A stretch of 64,000 bases of DNA from an uncultured Sphingomonadales bacterium (lineage in GTDB: Bacteria; Pseudomonadota; Alphaproteobacteria; Sphingomonadales; Sphingomonadaceae). The DNA lies in the NCBI GenBank assembly GCA_903821605.1, contig CAIJLZ010000004.1, positions 1 through 64,000 of the forward strand. Direction: 5' to 3'. Positions 1,644-49,451 of the stretch are shown here, piece after piece (within the stretch, counting starts at the first letter, position 1; each line of letters opens with the position of its first letter). The notes beneath the pieces are model-generated. The model was not told the DNA's origin and did not search any database. It worked only from the letters and a program-made list of their open reading frames with translations. A program made the translations under genes and the position numbers.

Positions 1644-1896
1644 GGACCTTCTCCCCCCGGGCGGGCCTGTCATATGACGCTACTATGACAAGCAGCGATG
1701 GCAGGCGCAAGCCATCGACAGGGCCTTGAAAATAAGGTGGGACGCCCCAAGTCTGAAGGGCGGGCCGGGCCCCTCTGGTGATTGCAGGCGCAGTCGCGAT
1801 GTCGGACCGCATCGAGATTGCTCGATGCTGGTCCATCATGGCGACCTGTAAGCACGAGCCACTCGATCTTGTCGAACCATGAGGAGACAATGCGAG

Positions 1897-4355: not shown

Positions 4356-4940
4356 TCACGGCCGCAGGCGATAAACCGGATCTGCCGCGCCCCAAGCACC
4401 AAGCGGGCGGAGTGTCGCCATCATGCCCTCGTCAAGTATCTGTCCGGAGGGGCTGTTGTCGTTCCAGTCCATCACCACCTGACGCTGAAAAATGCGCCAT
4501 TCACCCGCGCGGCGTTCGAACTGATCGAGATAGCGGCCCGCCATGACAAACTGCTCCCGCATTGGATCGAGACCAAGGCCCGCACATAATGCCGCATAGC
4601 GTTCCCCCATGATGCCGCCCACCATCTCCGGGCGGACCTGACAGGGCGAATAGAGATAGCTCTCGGTACTGGCCCGGTCGCCATCGACCTCGATCGCGAT
4701 ATTGAGCAGGCAATGCGTGCCCATGATGAAGAAGTTCCGAATCTCGCGGATGATGAAGGGGACGAACTCCCCGGCATTGCCCGAATAGATGCCGTGAATG
4801 TCGCACCCATCCGGCCAATAGACCGTTTCCATCAGGCCAAGATCGGCACGGTCAAGCGCCCGGCAATAACGGGTGAGCACATCCTCAATGTCGCGCCGGG
4901 CGACGAGATCGGCCAAGGCGGCGGTGCGATCCAGCGTCAT
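4356..4940 (-). CDS. NTF2-like / SnoaL-like protein, second of a tandem pair
   Basis: This 194-residue protein fits the cone-shaped NTF2-like fold (SnoaL_4 type). It has an N-terminal helix RRDIEDVLTRYCRALDRADLGLMETVYWPDG, then beta strands ending in GRYLDQFERRAGEWRIFQRQVVMDWN. Such proteins are small isomerases, dehydratases or hydrolases of steroid, polyketide or aromatic catabolism. The gene overlaps the upstream paralogue by ATGA (4937-4940), so the two are probably translationally coupled. The acidic/His residues of the pocket (for example WPDGCDIHG) are conserved between the copies. No other catabolic enzyme apart from the acyl-CoA ligase lies nearby, so the substrate is unknown. Confidence 0.75.
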   Translation of the reverse strand: MTLDRTAALADLVARRDIEDVLTRYCRALDRADLGLMETVYWPDGCDIHGIYSGNAGEFVPFIIREIRNFFIMGTHCLLNIAIEVDGDRASTESYLYSPCQVRPEMVGGIMGERYAALCAGLGLDPMREQFVMAGRYLDQFERRAGEWRIFQRQVVMDWNDNSPSGQILDEGMMATLRPLGAWGAADPVYRLRP

Positions 4941-5518
4941 GGCCGGTTCGAGAAGACGAGATCGTCCCGCCCCCTCGCCCCCAATGGTCGCAAGGTCGCG
5001 AACATGCCCTGATCAAGAATTTCACCCGATGGCCGATTGTCGTTCCAATCCATCACCACCTGACGATGGAAAATGCGCCATTCGCCGTTGCGCCGCTCGA
5101 ACCGATCGAGATAACGCCCGCCGAAATAGAAATGATGATGCTCGGGATCGAGGCCCTTGCGGTCGAACATCTGCATATAGCGCGAGCCGAAAATATCCGC
5201 CGCCTTATCTGCACGCACCTTGTGATAGGCGAAGAGATAGGTCTCGGTCGCGGCGCGGTCCCCATCGATTTCCATATGCACGTTCATCAGGCCGTGCATC
5301 GTGACCTCGAACCAATTCTGAATTTCGCGCACGATGAATTCGGCGAAATCGGCGGCATTACCGTCGAACACGCCATGGCTGTCGGTGCCATCGGGCCAGT
5401 AGACGGATTTCATCAGTTCGACATCGCAGCGATCCAGCGCCCGCGAATAACGGGTCAGCACCTCATAAATATCGCGTCGGTCCAACAGGTCCTGCAATTC
5501 GGTGTCGGGGGTCTTCAT
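4937..5518 (-). CDS. NTF2-like / SnoaL-like protein, first of a tandem pair
   Basis: This 193-residue paralogue of the following gene is matched throughout, with roughly half of the residues identical by eye and the same length. It has the same NTF2-like layout: RRDIYEVLTRYSRALDRCDVELMKSVYWPDGTDSHG at the N-terminus and GRYLDRFERRNGEWRIFHRQVVMDWNDN towards the C-terminus. It is the promoter-proximal member of a two-gene operon. The pair probably arose by local duplication and may form homo- or hetero-oligomers, since NTF2-like proteins commonly dimerise or trimerise. Function is inferred only at fold level. Confidence 0.75.
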   Translation of the reverse strand: MKTPDTELQDLLDRRDIYEVLTRYSRALDRCDVELMKSVYWPDGTDSHGVFDGNAADFAEFIVREIQNWFEVTMHGLMNVHMEIDGDRAATETYLFAYHKVRADKAADIFGSRYMQMFDRKGLDPEHHHFYFGGRYLDRFERRNGEWRIFHRQVVMDWNDNRPSGEILDQGMFATLRPLGARGRDDLVFSNRP

Positions 5519-5834
5519 GCCATCCTCTCCTCGCCGGTCGGTTGATATATGCCGGTCGCATCAGCGCCCCATCAGCCAGGGCAAGGCGATGTTAGCCGTT
5601 TGGCGGCCATGCGCAACCGGCGAGGATCAACAACAACGCCCCACCCGCTTGCCCGCATCTAAGGGGATATCCCGCATTGATTTTTTACCTTGTTCATCCA
5701 AGGTTATGGCCGATGTCACCATATCGGAGCTGATGGCTGCGGCGCGCATCATCAGAGAACTACGGGGTACACAAGCGAACGAGAGCCATGCTCATCTCTT
5801 CCAGTCTGGATCAACTTGCATAGGGGAACTACCC
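5519..5834. other. Divergent intergenic region, no gene assigned
   Basis: About 316 nt separate the NTF2-like operon (minus) from the heme-binding-like gene (plus). The ORF track extends the plus gene through this region from 5502, and an in-frame ATG exists at 5706. The best ribosome-binding site (AGGGGAA) is at 5835, so I treat the region as regulatory. No clear dyad or consensus promoter was found. Confidence 0.4.
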
Positions 5835-36352: not shown

Positions 36353-36404
36353 CCGCGCCATTATGGCTTGACCGATGGCCAGCCCCTCCCTTACAGCCCG
36401 GCCC

Positions 36405-36595
36405 AGATGAGCGGTTCCCCGTAACGGGGGATGAAAAGGGAAGTTCGGTGCGTGGGGTCCGCCCCATAAATCCGGCGCTGTTCCCGCAACTGTAACCGGC
36501 GAGGACCGGTCCCAATATCCCACTGGTGGCTTGCTGCCGGGAAGGGGGGATCGGAACAATGACCCGGAAGCCAGGAGACCTGCCACTGATCGTCG
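36405..36595 (+). promoter_or_regulatory. Cobalamin (AdoCbl) riboswitch
   Basis: The leader before btuB contains the conserved cobalamin riboswitch elements in order. These are GGTTCCCC...GATGAAAAGGGAAGTTCGGTG, then GCTGTTCCCGCAACTGTAA (a core), then AAGCCAGGAGACCTGCC (B12 box). Ends are approximate. About 90 nt separate it from the TTG start of btuB, enough for an expression platform. Vitamin B12 binding would shut off receptor synthesis. Confidence 0.93.
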
Positions 36596-36687
36596 TCCTT
36601 CACGCGGGCGGGATAACCGGGTGATCGAGGCCGCCTTTGGGTGCTCGCCGTGACGACAAGTCGTGTGTCGTTACGGGAGAATCAACC

Positions 36688-44430: not shown

Positions 44431-45654
44431 ATGGTTGATCGCATGGCACAACAAAGCAAGGCAGCGGAGATGCCGGGGACAGTGGTAGATGGCCACCGGC
44501 TCGACCTGTTGCCGTGCGGGCCGGACCGTTTCAACGCGCTCTTGGCCCTGATCGATAGCGCCACGCGCGAACTGCAACTGTTCTTCTACATTGTCACCGA
44601 TGACGATCACGGGGCGATGCTTCGCGATTCGCTGGTCCGCGCCTGTGAGCGCCATGTCGCAGTTACGCTGCTGGTCGACGGCTTTGGCAGTGAACAACTG
44701 CCCGACAGTTGGTTCACCCCATTGCGGGCAAGCGGCGCGCGCTGCGCCCGGTTCCTGCCCGGCTGGGGACGTAAATATGTACTACGCAACCACCAGAAAC
44801 TGGCGATAGCCGACCGCGCCCGGGTGATACTCGGCGGCTGTAATATCGCCAGCCCCTATTTCACCGAATCGAGCGATGGCGATAATTGGACCGATTTGAT
44901 GGTCAGGGTCGAAGGGCCCCGGGTCGCGGCACTGGCCGCTTATTTCGACGATCTCGACCGCTGGATCCACAGCCCAAGCTCCGGCCTGCGCTCCTTTCGG
45001 GCACTGCTGCTGCACCATAGCCATCAGCCGCCCGAAGGCCGGGTGCGCTGGCTGTTTTCCGGCCCATTCGCCCGGATCAGTCCGTTCAGCCTTGACCTGC
45101 GCCATCTGGTATCGACCGCCCGGACGATGGACATCGTCGCCGCCTATTTCGCCCCGACGCCGGGCATGATTCGCCGCATGGGCCGCATGGCGCAGCGCGG
45201 GCTGATGCGGATCATCACACCCTCGCGCTCCGATAATCGTATCACCATTCAAGCTGCGCGCCATTGCTATGGCCGCCTGTTGCGCCAGGGGGTGCGGATC
45301 GCGGAATATCAACCGGCGCGCCTGCATATGAAGCTGATCGTGGCCGATGAGCATGTCTATATCGGCTCGGCCAATTTCGACGTGCGCAGCCAGTTCATCA
45401 ATGCCGAACTGATGCTGCGGGTATCGGATGCCGGCTTTGCCGCGCAGGTGCGAAGCCTGATCGATCGGCTGGAAATCGATTCCCGGCCCATCACCCAGGC
45501 AAAGCTCGACCGGGCGAACGGCTTCTGGGGTCGATTGCTTTGGCGGTTAAGCTATTATGTCGTGGTCACGCTCGACCCGACGGTGACGCGGCGCTTGCTT
45601 AGCCGCGTGCTTCAGGCCGAACGCGAACTCGAATCGTCTTTCCACGCCCAGTAA
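44431..45654 (+). CDS. Phospholipase D-like / cardiolipin synthase-like protein
   Basis: The 407-residue protein has two PLD domains with complete HKD motifs: HQKLAIAD (followed by ILGGCNIASPY) and HMKLIVADEHVYIGSANFDVRS. The N-terminus lacks the membrane helices of ClsA and resembles ClsB-type soluble synthases (ALIDSATRELQLFFYIVTDDDHGAMLRDSLVRACERHVAVTLLVDGFGS). The likely role is making cardiolipin or transferring phosphatidyl groups. ATG 44431 is used; 44443 is possible. Its 3' end overlaps that of the convergent phospholipid methyltransferase-like gene by 43 nt. Confidence 0.85.
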   Translation: MVDRMAQQSKAAEMPGTVVDGHRLDLLPCGPDRFNALLALIDSATRELQLFFYIVTDDDHGAMLRDSLVRACERHVAVTLLVDGFGSEQLPDSWFTPLRASGARCARFLPGWGRKYVLRNHQKLAIADRARVILGGCNIASPYFTESSDGDNWTDLMVRVEGPRVAALAAYFDDLDRWIHSPSSGLRSFRALLLHHSHQPPEGRVRWLFSGPFARISPFSLDLRHLVSTARTMDIVAAYFAPTPGMIRRMGRMAQRGLMRIITPSRSDNRITIQAARHCYGRLLRQGVRIAEYQPARLHMKLIVADEHVYIGSANFDVRSQFINAELMLRVSDAGFAAQVRSLIDRLEIDSRPITQAKLDRANGFWGRLLWRLSYYVVVTLDPTVTRRLLSRVLQAERELESSFHAQ

Positions 45655-46268
45655 AGCTGCGCGGGCGGGATATTCCACCACACCATTTCATGATCGATGT
45701 CGGTGAAATGCGGGGCGATAAAGTCCCGCACCTTGGGCGAAAATTGATAGACCAAAAACGCCCCGCCAGACCTGAGCGCCGCCGCCGTATTGGCAGCGAT
45801 GGCCGGGCCGATCCCGGCGGGCAGGGTCGAAAAGGGCAGGCCTGACAACACATAATCAGCATGATCAAAGCCATGCTGGCGAATGATGTCGAGCACATCG
45901 GCGGCGGAACCGAGCACGGGAACAAAACGGCTATCGGCAATATCGCTGGCCAGATAGTCGATGAAATCCGGATTGGTGTCGATTGCGATATAGGTGGCGT
46001 CTGGCGCCATTTTTTCGAGAATCGCCCGGCTGAACGTGCCGACACCGGGACCATATTCGACAAACAGCCGACACGCCTTCCAGTCGACCGGGCCCAACAT
46101 GGTCTCAATCAGCACATCCGATGATGGGATGATCGAACCGACCATCACGGGGTGTTTGAGAAACCCCTTGAAAAACATCGCCCAAGGGCCCGTTCTCTTT
46201 TTCCGAATGCCGGCCTCTTGCAGTGCGGTCCCGTCGGAAAACGTCATTACCATTGCGCCTTGTTGCAT
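45612..46268 (-). CDS. Phospholipid N-methyltransferase-like SAM-dependent enzyme (PmtA-like)
   Basis: The 218-residue class I methyltransferase has motif I VEYGPGVGTFSRAIL, an acidic end of beta2 (YIAIDTNPDF) and the SGLPFSTLP motif IV region. The preceding FFKGFLKHPVMVGSIIPSS segment is typical of PmtA-type phosphatidylethanolamine N-methyltransferases of alphaproteobacteria, which make phosphatidylcholine from PE. Assignment against rRNA dimethyltransferase-like relatives is by this N-terminal pattern. Start MQQGAMVM (46268) is favoured; the track start adds 51 implausible residues. Two predicted sRNA units lie directly upstream on the same strand. Confidence 0.72.
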   Translation of the reverse strand: MQQGAMVMTFSDGTALQEAGIRKKRTGPWAMFFKGFLKHPVMVGSIIPSSDVLIETMLGPVDWKACRLFVEYGPGVGTFSRAILEKMAPDATYIAIDTNPDFIDYLASDIADSRFVPVLGSAADVLDIIRQHGFDHADYVLSGLPFSTLPAGIGPAIAANTAAALRSGGAFLVYQFSPKVRDFIAPHFTDIDHEMVWWNIPPAQLYWAWKDDSSSRSA

Positions 46269-46421
46269 CTTGTATCGCCTTGCGTTGGCAAATGCGGGGG
46301 GCAAAGGCAAGGACAAGACGATCAGCTCACCCCATTTTTCGATGACCGCCCGGTCCCGGGGCGGGACGCAGGACATCGAAGGGCTAGAGGATTTCCTCGA
46401 AAAGCCGCGGCGACGCAGCAC

Positions 46422-46486
46422 AAAAAAGGGCCGGTCGGAAGCCCGACCGGCCTTGAAAGTTTTATAGGAGAGGATGCCTGAAAGGC
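46422..46486 (-). ncRNA. Predicted small RNA 1 (anti-Shine-Dalgarno type), proximal to pmtA-like gene
   Basis: This unit is a near-identical copy of predicted sRNA 2: 57 of 59 nt are the same over the 3' part. From a predicted start near 46486 the minus strand gives a small hairpin GCCU-UUC-AGGC, an unpaired AUCCUCUCCUAUAAAACUUUCAA and a 10-bp terminator stem GGCCGGUCGG/CCGACCGGCC. A U6 tail follows. A -35-like TTGCAC (46521-46516) is followed after 17 nt by CATAAA. CCUCUCCU can pair with ribosome-binding sites. No coding potential is preserved between the copies. The alternative is a 5' attenuator of the methyltransferase gene. Confidence 0.65.
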
Positions 46487-46543
46487 AGGTTCTTTATGTC
46501 GCGCGACTCGATTTTGTGCAAATGCGAAGATGAACATCTCGAA

Positions 46544-46556
46544 TGCAAATTTTGCA
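46544..46556. promoter_or_regulatory. LysR-type T-N11-A box upstream of sRNA 1
   Basis: TGCAAATTTTGCA is a perfect dyad around one central base and fits the LysR-family T-N11-A rule. Its centre lies about 64 nt upstream of the predicted sRNA 1 start, the usual place of a LysR recognition site. The same element recurs 230 nt away at sRNA 2. Confidence 0.55.
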
Positions 46557-46650
46557 TCTTACTTGCGGGCGTGATTGCCCCTAGCGCAAGTCACCGACGG
46601 ACCCTTGCACCATGCGTCCGAAAGACAGGGCTTTTCCGGAACACATGAAC

Positions 46651-46716
46651 AAAAAAAGGGCCGGTCAGAAACCCGACCGGCCTTGAAAGTTTTATAGGAG
46701 AGGATGCCTGAAAGGC
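46651..46716 (-). ncRNA. Predicted small RNA 2 (anti-Shine-Dalgarno type), distal copy
   Basis: This is the tandem sibling of sRNA 1, 230 nt upstream on the same strand. It keeps the GCCUUUCAGGC hairpin, the CCUCUCCUAUAAAACUUUCAA single strand and the terminator GGCCGGUCgGGuuucUGACCGGCC followed by U7. One terminator pair is lost to an A/C mismatch next to the loop. A -35-like TTGCAC (46751-46746) is again 17-19 nt from an AT-containing -10 region (GATATC/TATCAA). Sequence between the -35 and the transcript start is diverged while both flanks are conserved, which argues for selection on two separate elements. Confidence 0.65.
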
Positions 46717-46773
46717 GATTTTGATATCGCACCAACTCGATTATTGTGCAAGTGCGAAGAGCACGTTTCGGGT

Positions 46774-46786
46774 TGCATAATTTGCA
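46774..46786. promoter_or_regulatory. LysR-type T-N11-A box upstream of sRNA 2
   Basis: TGCATAATTTGCA matches the T-N11-A pattern with 5 of 6 symmetric arm positions. It lies about 64 nt upstream of the predicted sRNA 2 start, the same geometry as at sRNA 1. It is also in the divergent promoter region of the LysR gene, 114 nt before its start. Confidence 0.5.
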
Positions 46787-46900: not shown

Positions 46901-47815
46901 ATGCGTCGGTTGCCGCCGCTTTCAGGGATTGAAGCCTTTATCCAGGTCGCCCGCACCGGGTCGATCAAGGCCGCCGCAGAGTCGCTCTTGCTCTCCGCAC
47001 CTGCGCTTTCCCGCCGTATTCAAGGGCTGGAACGCCAATTGGGCCGCCCGTTGTTCGACCGTGTCCATCAGGGCATTCTGCTCAATGCCGATGGCGAGGC
47101 GCTGCTTCACCGCATTGCGCCTGCGCTGGATGCGATGATCGATGCCATTGATGTGACCGTCGGCGGCACAGAAATCCTCCGCCTGCGGATCGGCATGCCG
47201 CCACTTTTTGCATCGCAGCAGATCATCCACCGCCTGCCCGACCTGCGAGAACTGCATCCGACGCTGCATCTTGATATCGACACCGCCCCCCATGCGATGG
47301 CGCGGGTCGGCGAAGGGCTGGATGCCGCGATCGTGCTCGTCCGCTCGGTTGAACCGGCGCTTTACGGTCGGCGTATCGGCGTCAACCATGTCGTCGCCCT
47401 TGCGTCGCCGGACATGGTTAATGGCCCGCATCCGATCAAATCCGTCAAGGATCTGCGTCATCACACCATCTTGATTCACCGCGATATGCCGGAAACGTTT
47501 GACGAATGGCGCGATGCGATGGGCCATCCAGAGGTTGAACCGGCTGCCGTCGATCACATGGATTCGGGCCAGTTGATGCTGGAAGCCGCCGCCCAAGGGT
47601 TGGGGATCGCCTTCATGCTCGATTCCCATCTCAGCGAATGGGATGAGCAGGAACGGTTGGTTCCCTTGTTCACCCGGAAGGTGGCCAGCCCCTATAATTA
47701 TTATTTCACCTGTCGCCGTTCGGCGATGTCGGTGCGCGCCGTCCGGTTGTTCCATGACTGGCTGTTCGATGTGCTGGAAGACGACAAACACCCCGAAACC
47801 GAGGACGCGGTCTAA
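46901..47815 (+). CDS. LysR-family transcriptional regulator
   Basis: The 304-residue protein has an N-terminal LysR HTH (PPLSGIEAFIQVARTGSIKAAAESLLLSAPALSRRIQGLERQLGRPLFDR) and a periplasmic-binding-like effector domain (LRLRIGMPPLFASQQIIHRLPDLRELHPTLHLDIDT...GEGLDAAIVL). The HTH-linker and effector pattern resembles the GcvA-like branch. AGGGGAATGCATCA precedes ATG 46901. It is divergent from two predicted sRNA genes that carry T-N11-A boxes, so they are its likely targets. The effector is unknown. A hairpin terminator follows. Confidence 0.9.
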   Translation: MRRLPPLSGIEAFIQVARTGSIKAAAESLLLSAPALSRRIQGLERQLGRPLFDRVHQGILLNADGEALLHRIAPALDAMIDAIDVTVGGTEILRLRIGMPPLFASQQIIHRLPDLRELHPTLHLDIDTAPHAMARVGEGLDAAIVLVRSVEPALYGRRIGVNHVVALASPDMVNGPHPIKSVKDLRHHTILIHRDMPETFDEWRDAMGHPEVEPAAVDHMDSGQLMLEAAAQGLGIAFMLDSHLSEWDEQERLVPLFTRKVASPYNYYFTCRRSAMSVRAVRLFHDWLFDVLEDDKHPETEDAV

Positions 47816-48113: not shown

Positions 48114-49451
48114 ATGACCAAATTTACCGACCTCGGCCTTGCCGAACCGATCGAGCGCGCGCTCGCCGCCAAGGGCTATGAACAGCCAACGCCGATTCAG
48201 TTGCAGGCCATTCCGGTGCTGATGCAGCGCCGCGACCTATGCGGCATCGCGCAGACCGGCACCGGCAAGACCGCCGCATTCGCACTGCCGTCGCTGCACC
48301 ACCTCGCGGCCGACCTCAAGCGCCCAATCCCGGCGAGCTGCCGCATGCTGGTGCTCGCCCCGACACGCGAATTGGCCAGCCAGATCGCCGTCAGCTTCCG
48401 CGATTACGCCAAGTTTCTCCGCCTTTCGGTCGATACCGTGTTCGGCGGCGTGCCGATCGGCCGCCAGATCAAGTCGCTATCCCGCGGCATCGACATTCTG
48501 ATCGCGACGCCTGGCCGCCTGCTCGACCTGATTGACCAGAGCGCGCTCAACCTCCGCAACGTCGAGATTTTCGTGCTCGACGAGGCCGATCAGATGCTCG
48601 ATCTCGGCTTCATCCACGCGCTCAAGCGGATCGACAAGCTGCTGCCGAAAAAGCGCCAAAGCCTGTTCTTCTCGGCCACCATGCCCAAGACGATTGCGGA
48701 ACTGGGAGATCGCTTCCTGACCGATCCGGTGCGCGTCTCCGTCACCCCGCCAGCGACCACCGCCGAGCGCGTTGACCAATATGTGACCTACGTCAACCAG
48801 ACGGAAAAGCAGGCGCTGCTGACCCTGACCCTCAAGAACGAGAATATCGAACGCGCGCTGATCTTCACCCGCACCAAGCATGGCGCAGACCGCGTGGTGA
48901 AGCATCTGAACGCCGCCGGTGTTGGGGCCGAGGCGATCCATGGCAATAAAAGCCAGCCGCAGCGCGAACGCGCGCTCAGCCTGTTCCGTTCGGGTTCGAT
49001 CAAATTTCTGGTCGCCACCGATATTGCGGCGCGCGGCATCGATGTTTCGGGCGTGAGCCATGTGTTCAACTTCGAACTGCCGAATGTGGCGGAACAATAT
49101 GTCCACCGCATCGGCCGCACCGCCCGCGCGGGCGCCACCGGCATTGCGATGAGCTATGTCGCCGAGGATGAGCGCGCCTATCTGCGCGGGATTGAAAAGC
49201 TGACCAAGGTCCGCCTGACCCCGGTGCCACTGCCTGCGGATTTTCTGGATCAGGCCCGCTCGCTGCCAAAGCCCGCACAGGCCAAACCAACCGCCCAGCG
49301 TCGCCACGACGAAGCGCGCGGTCGTCCAGCGCAGGGCGCCGGGGCCGGTGCGGCCGATGGCGAACGTCCGCGTCGCCCGTTCCGCCCGAGCCGCAAGCCT
49401 GGTTCGGTGGGCAGCCATAAGGGCGCCGTCCGCAAGGCGGGCGGTCGCTGA
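48114..49451 (+). CDS. DEAD-box ATP-dependent RNA helicase, RhlE-like
   Basis: The 445-residue protein has all core helicase motifs: Q motif (GYEQPTPIQLQAIP), I AQTGTGKT, Ia APTRELA, II DEAD, III SAT, IV ALIFTRTKHGAD, V ATDIAARGIDV and VI HRIGRTARAG. A basic, Arg-rich disordered tail (RRPFRPSRKPGSVGSHKGAVRKAGGR) follows. RhlE-type helicases remodel RNA in ribosome assembly and decay, often under cold. GAAAGAAGTGACG precedes ATG 48114. It is monocistronic and ended by a strong hairpin. Confidence 0.93.
   Translation: MTKFTDLGLAEPIERALAAKGYEQPTPIQLQAIPVLMQRRDLCGIAQTGTGKTAAFALPSLHHLAADLKRPIPASCRMLVLAPTRELASQIAVSFRDYAKFLRLSVDTVFGGVPIGRQIKSLSRGIDILIATPGRLLDLIDQSALNLRNVEIFVLDEADQMLDLGFIHALKRIDKLLPKKRQSLFFSATMPKTIAELGDRFLTDPVRVSVTPPATTAERVDQYVTYVNQTEKQALLTLTLKNENIERALIFTRTKHGADRVVKHLNAAGVGAEAIHGNKSQPQRERALSLFRSGSIKFLVATDIAARGIDVSGVSHVFNFELPNVAEQYVHRIGRTARAGATGIAMSYVAEDERAYLRGIEKLTKVRLTPVPLPADFLDQARSLPKPAQAKPTAQRRHDEARGRPAQGAGAGAADGERPRRPFRPSRKPGSVGSHKGAVRKAGGR

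Follow-up and report, generated by a model that had tools for sequence, protein, structure and literature searches.

Paralogous alpha-R8 small RNA genes in a sphingomonad share a promoter module and probably a LysR-type regulator

The window, which is the whole 64,000-nucleotide stretch of DNA that we analysed, carries on its minus strand two paralogous sRNA genes of the alpha-R8 (SuhB/MmgR/Sis) family, a known family in a known clade. We consider it probable that these genes and a third copy elsewhere in the genome are alpha-R8 paralogues under the control of a LysR-type regulator, encoded divergently beside the pair. The relevant features of the window are as follows.

5521-5531, minus strand: AGGAGAGGATG, a putative pairing site for the sRNAs at the ribosome-binding site of a SnoaL-like gene (4937-5518)
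46422-46452, minus strand: terminator of copy B, a 10-pair stem (46429-46452) and a U tail
46423-46487, minus strand: alpha-R8 sRNA gene, copy B, the one farther from the LysR gene; transcript of ~65 nt predicted
46466-46476, minus strand: anti-Shine-Dalgarno core of copy B, CAUCCUCUCCU, complement of AGGAGAGGATG
46493-46498, minus strand: -10 hexamer of copy B, CATAAA, 17 nt after TTGCAC
46514-46528, minus strand: TTCGCATTTGCACAA block of copy B, forming the module's second half and containing the -35 TTGCAC (46516-46521)
46544-46556, minus strand: LysR-type T-N11-A palindrome of copy B, TGCAAAATTTGCA
46652-46682, minus strand: terminator of copy A, a 10-pair stem (46659-46682) and a U tail
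46653-46717, minus strand: alpha-R8 sRNA gene, copy A, the one adjacent to the LysR gene; transcript of ~65 nt predicted
46696-46706, minus strand: anti-Shine-Dalgarno core of copy A, assigned on the same basis as that of copy B
46723-46728, minus strand: -10 hexamer of copy A, GATATC, 17 nt after TTGCAC
46744-46758, minus strand: TTCGCACTTGCACAA block of copy A, containing the -35 TTGCAC (46746-46751)
46774-46786, minus strand: LysR-type T-N11-A palindrome of copy A, TGCAAATTATGCA, which at the same time lies 115 bp upstream of the LysR start
46901-47815, plus strand: LysR-type (GcvA-like) regulator (PF00126, PF03466), encoded divergently from the sRNA pair and proposed to regulate all three copies

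Two sibling alpha-R8 sRNA genes

The two units form a direct repeat (46422-46486 and 46652-46716, minus strand) in which 63 of 65 nucleotides are identical and the start-to-start distance is 230, as the initial annotation had described for twin units with a near-identical core. Both mismatches between copies A and B fall in the terminator; one is a loop position and the other changes a G-C pair to G-U, so the pairing is preserved in both terminators. Each copy folds into a GCCUUUCAGGC hairpin, leaves AUCCUCUCCUAUAAAAC unpaired and ends in a terminator with a 10-bp stem and U6-U7. The folding z-scores against dinucleotide shuffles are -4.7 and -4.8, which bears out the earlier description of a hairpin, an open anti-Shine-Dalgarno segment and a strong terminator in each unit. 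The -35 hexamer TTGCAC is kept in both copies and the -10 hexamers differ, also as described. The 5' ends of the sRNAs are predicted from promoter spacing and the 3' ends from the terminators. Among 39 sequences, all columns of the sRNA core but one are invariant, and a check of the terminator helix as a named helix shows that it covaries among relatives, while RNAalifold on the MAFFT alignment did not recover the terminator. A near-invariant open core with compensated changes in the terminator is what is predicted for a seed region with a free terminator. The earlier view of the units as non-coding, tandem sibling trans-acting sRNAs with an anti-Shine-Dalgarno stretch is supported.

The covariance-model search that the initial annotation had proposed places both copies in the Rfam family RF00519 (suhB/MmgR, alpha-R8). 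Copy B matches at 46414-46493 with 48.9 bits and copy A at 46644-46723 with 45.1 bits (cut-off 41), and both matches span the whole model. A third copy, with 52.5 bits, lies elsewhere in the genome (G000:C6:198382-198461), 3' of pgi and convergent with an aminotransferase gene. Two other candidate families were set aside as below threshold, ncS54 (27.8 bits, cut-off 43) and the L20 leader (22.1 bits, cut-off 58.7). Elsewhere in the window there are a cobalamin riboswitch (36395-36601, plus strand, 115.3 bits) and a terC RNA (1757-1814, plus strand, 60.3 bits). The copies show the alpha-R8 architecture of a weak 5' hairpin, a single-stranded CU-rich core and a Rho-independent terminator. At the same model positions the core reads CAUCCUCUCC here and UUUCCUCCCU in characterised members of the family, which include MmgR and SisA-D (PMC12559287); the family's name in Rfam is that of the sphingomonad RNA SuhB (PMC6563040). 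An exact UUUCCUCCCU is not an Rfam criterion, and the CAUCCUCUCC core is a sphingomonad subtype that RF00519 accepts above its cut-off.

The genus is Aquisediminimonas or very near to it, the closest named genome being that of A. sediminicola CH68-4, whose LysR protein is 91% identical. The element was expected at syntenic loci in relatives, and it is conserved within the genus: the tandem pair is present in all three members seen, with spacings of 230, 222 and 224. Tandem pairs are otherwise rare, with looser pairs in two other genomes. To the eye, the promoter of each copy, A or B, is closer to that of its counterpart in the other species than to that of its sibling, in keeping with an old duplication after which the RNAs stayed alike. 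A tandem duplication common to the genus is the best explanation for the two copies.

A shared promoter module and the facing LysR gene

All three copies carry a 40-bp upstream module that consists of TGCA-N5-TGCA, 17 bp and CGCANTTGCA. The pattern has exactly three matches in the 2.67-Mb genome, each at an sRNA gene; the reversed control has no match in the genome, and allowing three mismatches adds one weak match. The palindrome has the T-N11-A form and is centred ~64 bp before the predicted start, taking transcription to begin ~7 nt after the -10 hexamer. The LysR recognition site usually lies near -64/-65. The upstream palindrome, the third copy and the facing LysR gene are all absent from the initial annotation. 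Across 71 sRNA upstream regions from 38 sphingomonad genomes, the palindrome, the TTCGCACTTGCACAA block and the -10 region carry information and all other positions next to none, and the spacing to the hairpin is identical in 59 of the 71. The palindrome is found in 56 of these regions and both elements in 47, and the complete module, by the strict pattern, is missing in 3 of the 38 genomes. Of 19 alpha-R8 genes from other families of the order, none has the palindrome or the full pair of elements.

The protein encoded at 46901-47815 has the domains PF00126 (HTH_1, 65.6 bits) and PF03466 (substrate-binding, 108.2 bits), and its best subfamily resemblance is to GcvA, under the cut-off of that model. 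An orthologue (45-100% identity) occurs once per genome in 38 of 49 family genomes and is absent from the other 11 and from all 32 genomes of other families. The CATCCTCTC-type RNA is present in precisely the 38 genomes with the orthologue. A family-wide pattern, AGGCATCCTCTCCT, proved too strict, since it misses the many members in which the core goes on with CCCA, and this co-occurrence does not rely on it. In the 11 genomes that lack the LysR gene, even a sensitive search gave only sub-threshold alpha-R8 candidates, several of which, having a PhaR-like box and no LysR palindrome, resemble diverged relatives. The sub-threshold alpha-R8-like genes at L125, L130, L131 and L135, in LysR-less sphingomonad genomes, have in common a GCGATCCTCCCCAAGGATT-type core and a PhaR-like box just upstream and lack the LysR palindrome; they are perhaps a separate subtype missed by Rfam. 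On an rpoB tree, presence of the LysR gene changes only twice, approximately one gain and one loss, so the 38/11 co-occurrence taken alone is weak, nearly a single event, and is no statistical proof. The linkage and the footprint therefore carry the argument.

The LysR gene faces an sRNA gene directly in 14 of the 38 genomes. In 77 of 80 named genomes, among them Sphingomonas, Rhizorhabdus, Sphingobium, Stakelama, Parasphingopyxis and Zymomonas, the two genes are divergent neighbours, with 95-234 bp between the sRNA core and the LysR start. Because these 80 genomes hold the closest orthologues, the share is higher than in the even genome sample. The module is still retained at sRNA genes that are not linked to the LysR gene. 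The palindrome also occurs upstream of 4 of 16 unlinked LysR genes (200 shuffles: mean 0.1, maximum 2), and the other 12 lack a clear one. The form and position of the palindrome, the module at unlinked sRNA genes and the palindromes at these four LysR genes give the link independent support.

The module could instead be bound by another regulator of these alpha-R8 genes, such as PhaR or a global carbon regulator, with the LysR neighbour unrelated, and we regard this as unlikely. In S. meliloti PhaR controls mmgR through YGCRNYGCR sites (PMC12542648), a PhaR-like box lies at the sRNA -10 region in many relatives, and PhaR is encoded in the window's genome; some other clade-wide protein could also bind the module. 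However, the GC-to-GC distances in the module are 9 and 6, and PhaR requires 5. The -10 box is missing from all three copies in the genus although PhaR is present, and in one relative (G027) PhaR was not found, yet the palindrome is kept and the second block is altered. The close linkage to the LysR gene in the named genomes also argues against an unrelated neighbour. PhaR control of the sRNAs in the window's genus was rejected, as the box is missing from the three promoters. Upstream of the genome's own phaR gene (L217, G000:C5:19800-22400), TTGCGGTGCGG fits a PhaR site, indicating that such sites exist in this genome, though not at the sRNAs.

In the relatives with a box, a TGCTGCGGTGCACAA-like sequence over the sRNA -10 region fits YGCRNYGCR (e.g. 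L018, L041, L046 and L052). PhaR-like boxes also lie upstream of 14 of 30 LysR genes (e.g. L107, L109, L115 and L117), where shuffles average 5.4 and 0 of 200 reach 14. This suggests a PhaR input to the LysR regulator, with the limit that the enrichment is not significant for unlinked LysR genes alone.

Other readings of the repeat and the proposed circuit

We consider it very unlikely that the elements act in cis, as leaders or attenuators of the methyltransferase gene downstream (45612-46364), instead of being free sRNAs. They do lie upstream of that gene on the same strand, but each copy has its own promoter module and a strong terminator, and the third copy sits downstream of pgi and convergent with the aminotransferase gene. 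In a genome of the same genus, a transporter-like gene that is absent in the window (L037:2817-4160) separates the pair from the methyltransferase gene.

Membership of the AbcR1/AbcR2 family, which the initial annotation had suggested, is more improbable still. A tandem pair next to a LysR gene with an anti-Shine-Dalgarno stretch recalls the rhizobial arrangement (PMC8844928, PMC7486931), but neither copy matches an AbcR-type Rfam family even at E<=1, and both score above the cut-off of RF00519. In addition, the RNAs are predicted to be ~65 nt, versus 114-121 nt for AbcR1/2 of S. meliloti (PMC8844928). The covariance-model result refutes an AbcR counterpart by descent.

A small plus-strand gene, with AGGAGAGGATG as ribosome-binding site and start, is the least credible reading: AGGAG followed by ATG resembles a start site, but the frames from the shared ATG end at 19 and 6 codons and are unrelated past the repeat, as the earlier judgement that coding is unlikely had it, and conservation tracks the RNA structure with its covarying terminator helix.

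We therefore return to alpha-R8 sRNAs under a LysR-type regulator. Judging from the promoter sequences and gene arrangement, the LysR protein is likely the direct regulator of the sRNA genes; that it is an activator rather than a repressor is probable to a somewhat lesser degree, judged by the position of the site. Transcription of all three copies would start at promoters that combine a T-N11-A palindrome near -64 with a second element reaching the -35 region, and the divergently encoded LysR protein would bind this module, probably activating. Each ~65-nt RNA, with Hfq, would pair its CAUCCUCUCCU stretch with ribosome-binding sites and so block the translation of uptake and catabolic genes when a preferred carbon source is plentiful. 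Family membership, copy number, module, linkage and conservation are established here and Hfq-dependent repression at 5' UTRs is known from relatives; binding of the LysR protein to the module, the sign of regulation and the sRNA targets are what we infer.

Hfq is encoded in the genome (L244, G000:C13:201881-202309), and two adjacent Sm-domain matches in one 191-codon open frame point to a putative double-domain Hfq. Targets were predicted by duplexes in the window and genome-wide by pattern matches. Apart from the sRNA genes, the genome contains AGGAGAGGATG exactly once, at the SnoaL-like gene, and the predicted duplex there, of -23.8 kcal/mol, is the best of 609 candidate starts within the window. 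Since an 11-mer is expected to match about once per genome by chance and start sites often carry AGGAG, this target is only a lead. A TonB-receptor gene (C4:202478) carries the same candidate site with one mismatch.

We lean towards a broader proposal, in which the sphingomonad alpha-R8 siblings would all be switched together, unlike in Caulobacter, by a single dedicated LysR-type regulator whose origin coincided with that of the CAUCCUCUCC subtype. PhaR-like boxes on the sRNA and LysR promoters would, in many genera, tie the circuit to carbon storage. The open literature searched, outside which lie the original SuhB and alpha-R8 papers, holds no report of a LysR regulator for alpha-R8 RNAs and names no transcriptional regulator of SuhB. 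The shared module and its probable dedicated LysR regulator appear to be the novel element. In a pollutant-degrading sphingomonad, catabolite repression is under the control of SuhB; a single conserved LysR switch, if real, would offer direct genetic access to carbon preference in Sphingomonas, Sphingobium and Zymomonas.

Comparison with known systems

The closest counterpart is SuhB of Sphingopyxis granuli TFA, a related sphingomonad, which belongs to the same family and has 61 nt versus ~65 predicted here. SuhB is expressed at high growth rate and, with Hfq, blocks translation of thnR, repressing the catabolic regulator ThnR (PMC6563040). That review (PMC6563040) describes a single RNA and does not name its transcriptional regulator, whereas here a tandem pair and a third copy carry a LysR module. 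MmgR of Sinorhizobium meliloti also belongs to RF00519, is associated with Hfq and acts in carbon-storage control (PMC12542648, PMC12559287). In contrast to the three genes here, mmgR is a single copy, repressed by PhaR/AniA at a promoter site that is missing from the three promoters.

Caulobacter crescentus has four alpha-R8 siblings in one genome, SisA-SisD, with an anti-Shine-Dalgarno 10-mer (PMC12559287). The Sis RNAs repress TonB receptors and metabolic genes, SisA by pairing its core with the 5' UTRs of TonB receptors and others (PMC12559287). Their core is UUUCCUCCCU and that of the window's copies CAUCCUCUCCU, and the Sis promoters have no common motif, whereas the three promoters here share the 40-bp module.

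AbcR1/AbcR2 with LsrB/VtlR are likewise tandem sRNAs beside a LysR gene, with AbcR1 activated directly (PMC8844928, PMC7486931), and differ from the pair here in RNA family. By inspection, the VtlR box GCAT-N3-TG-N3-T (PMC7486931) was not found in the three promoters. trxB, whose adjacency is a trait of VtlR/LsrB, was not found next to the LysR gene, which is flanked by the sRNA pair and by a DEAD-box helicase frame (48114-49451). The comparison is nevertheless apt as an analogy of working, since the rhizobial RNAs too lie in tandem beside a LysR gene whose product activates AbcR1. If the proposed circuit is correct, it would be a second alphaproteobacterial case, besides VtlR/LsrB with AbcR, of a LysR protein commanding tandem anti-Shine-Dalgarno RNAs, through another RNA family.
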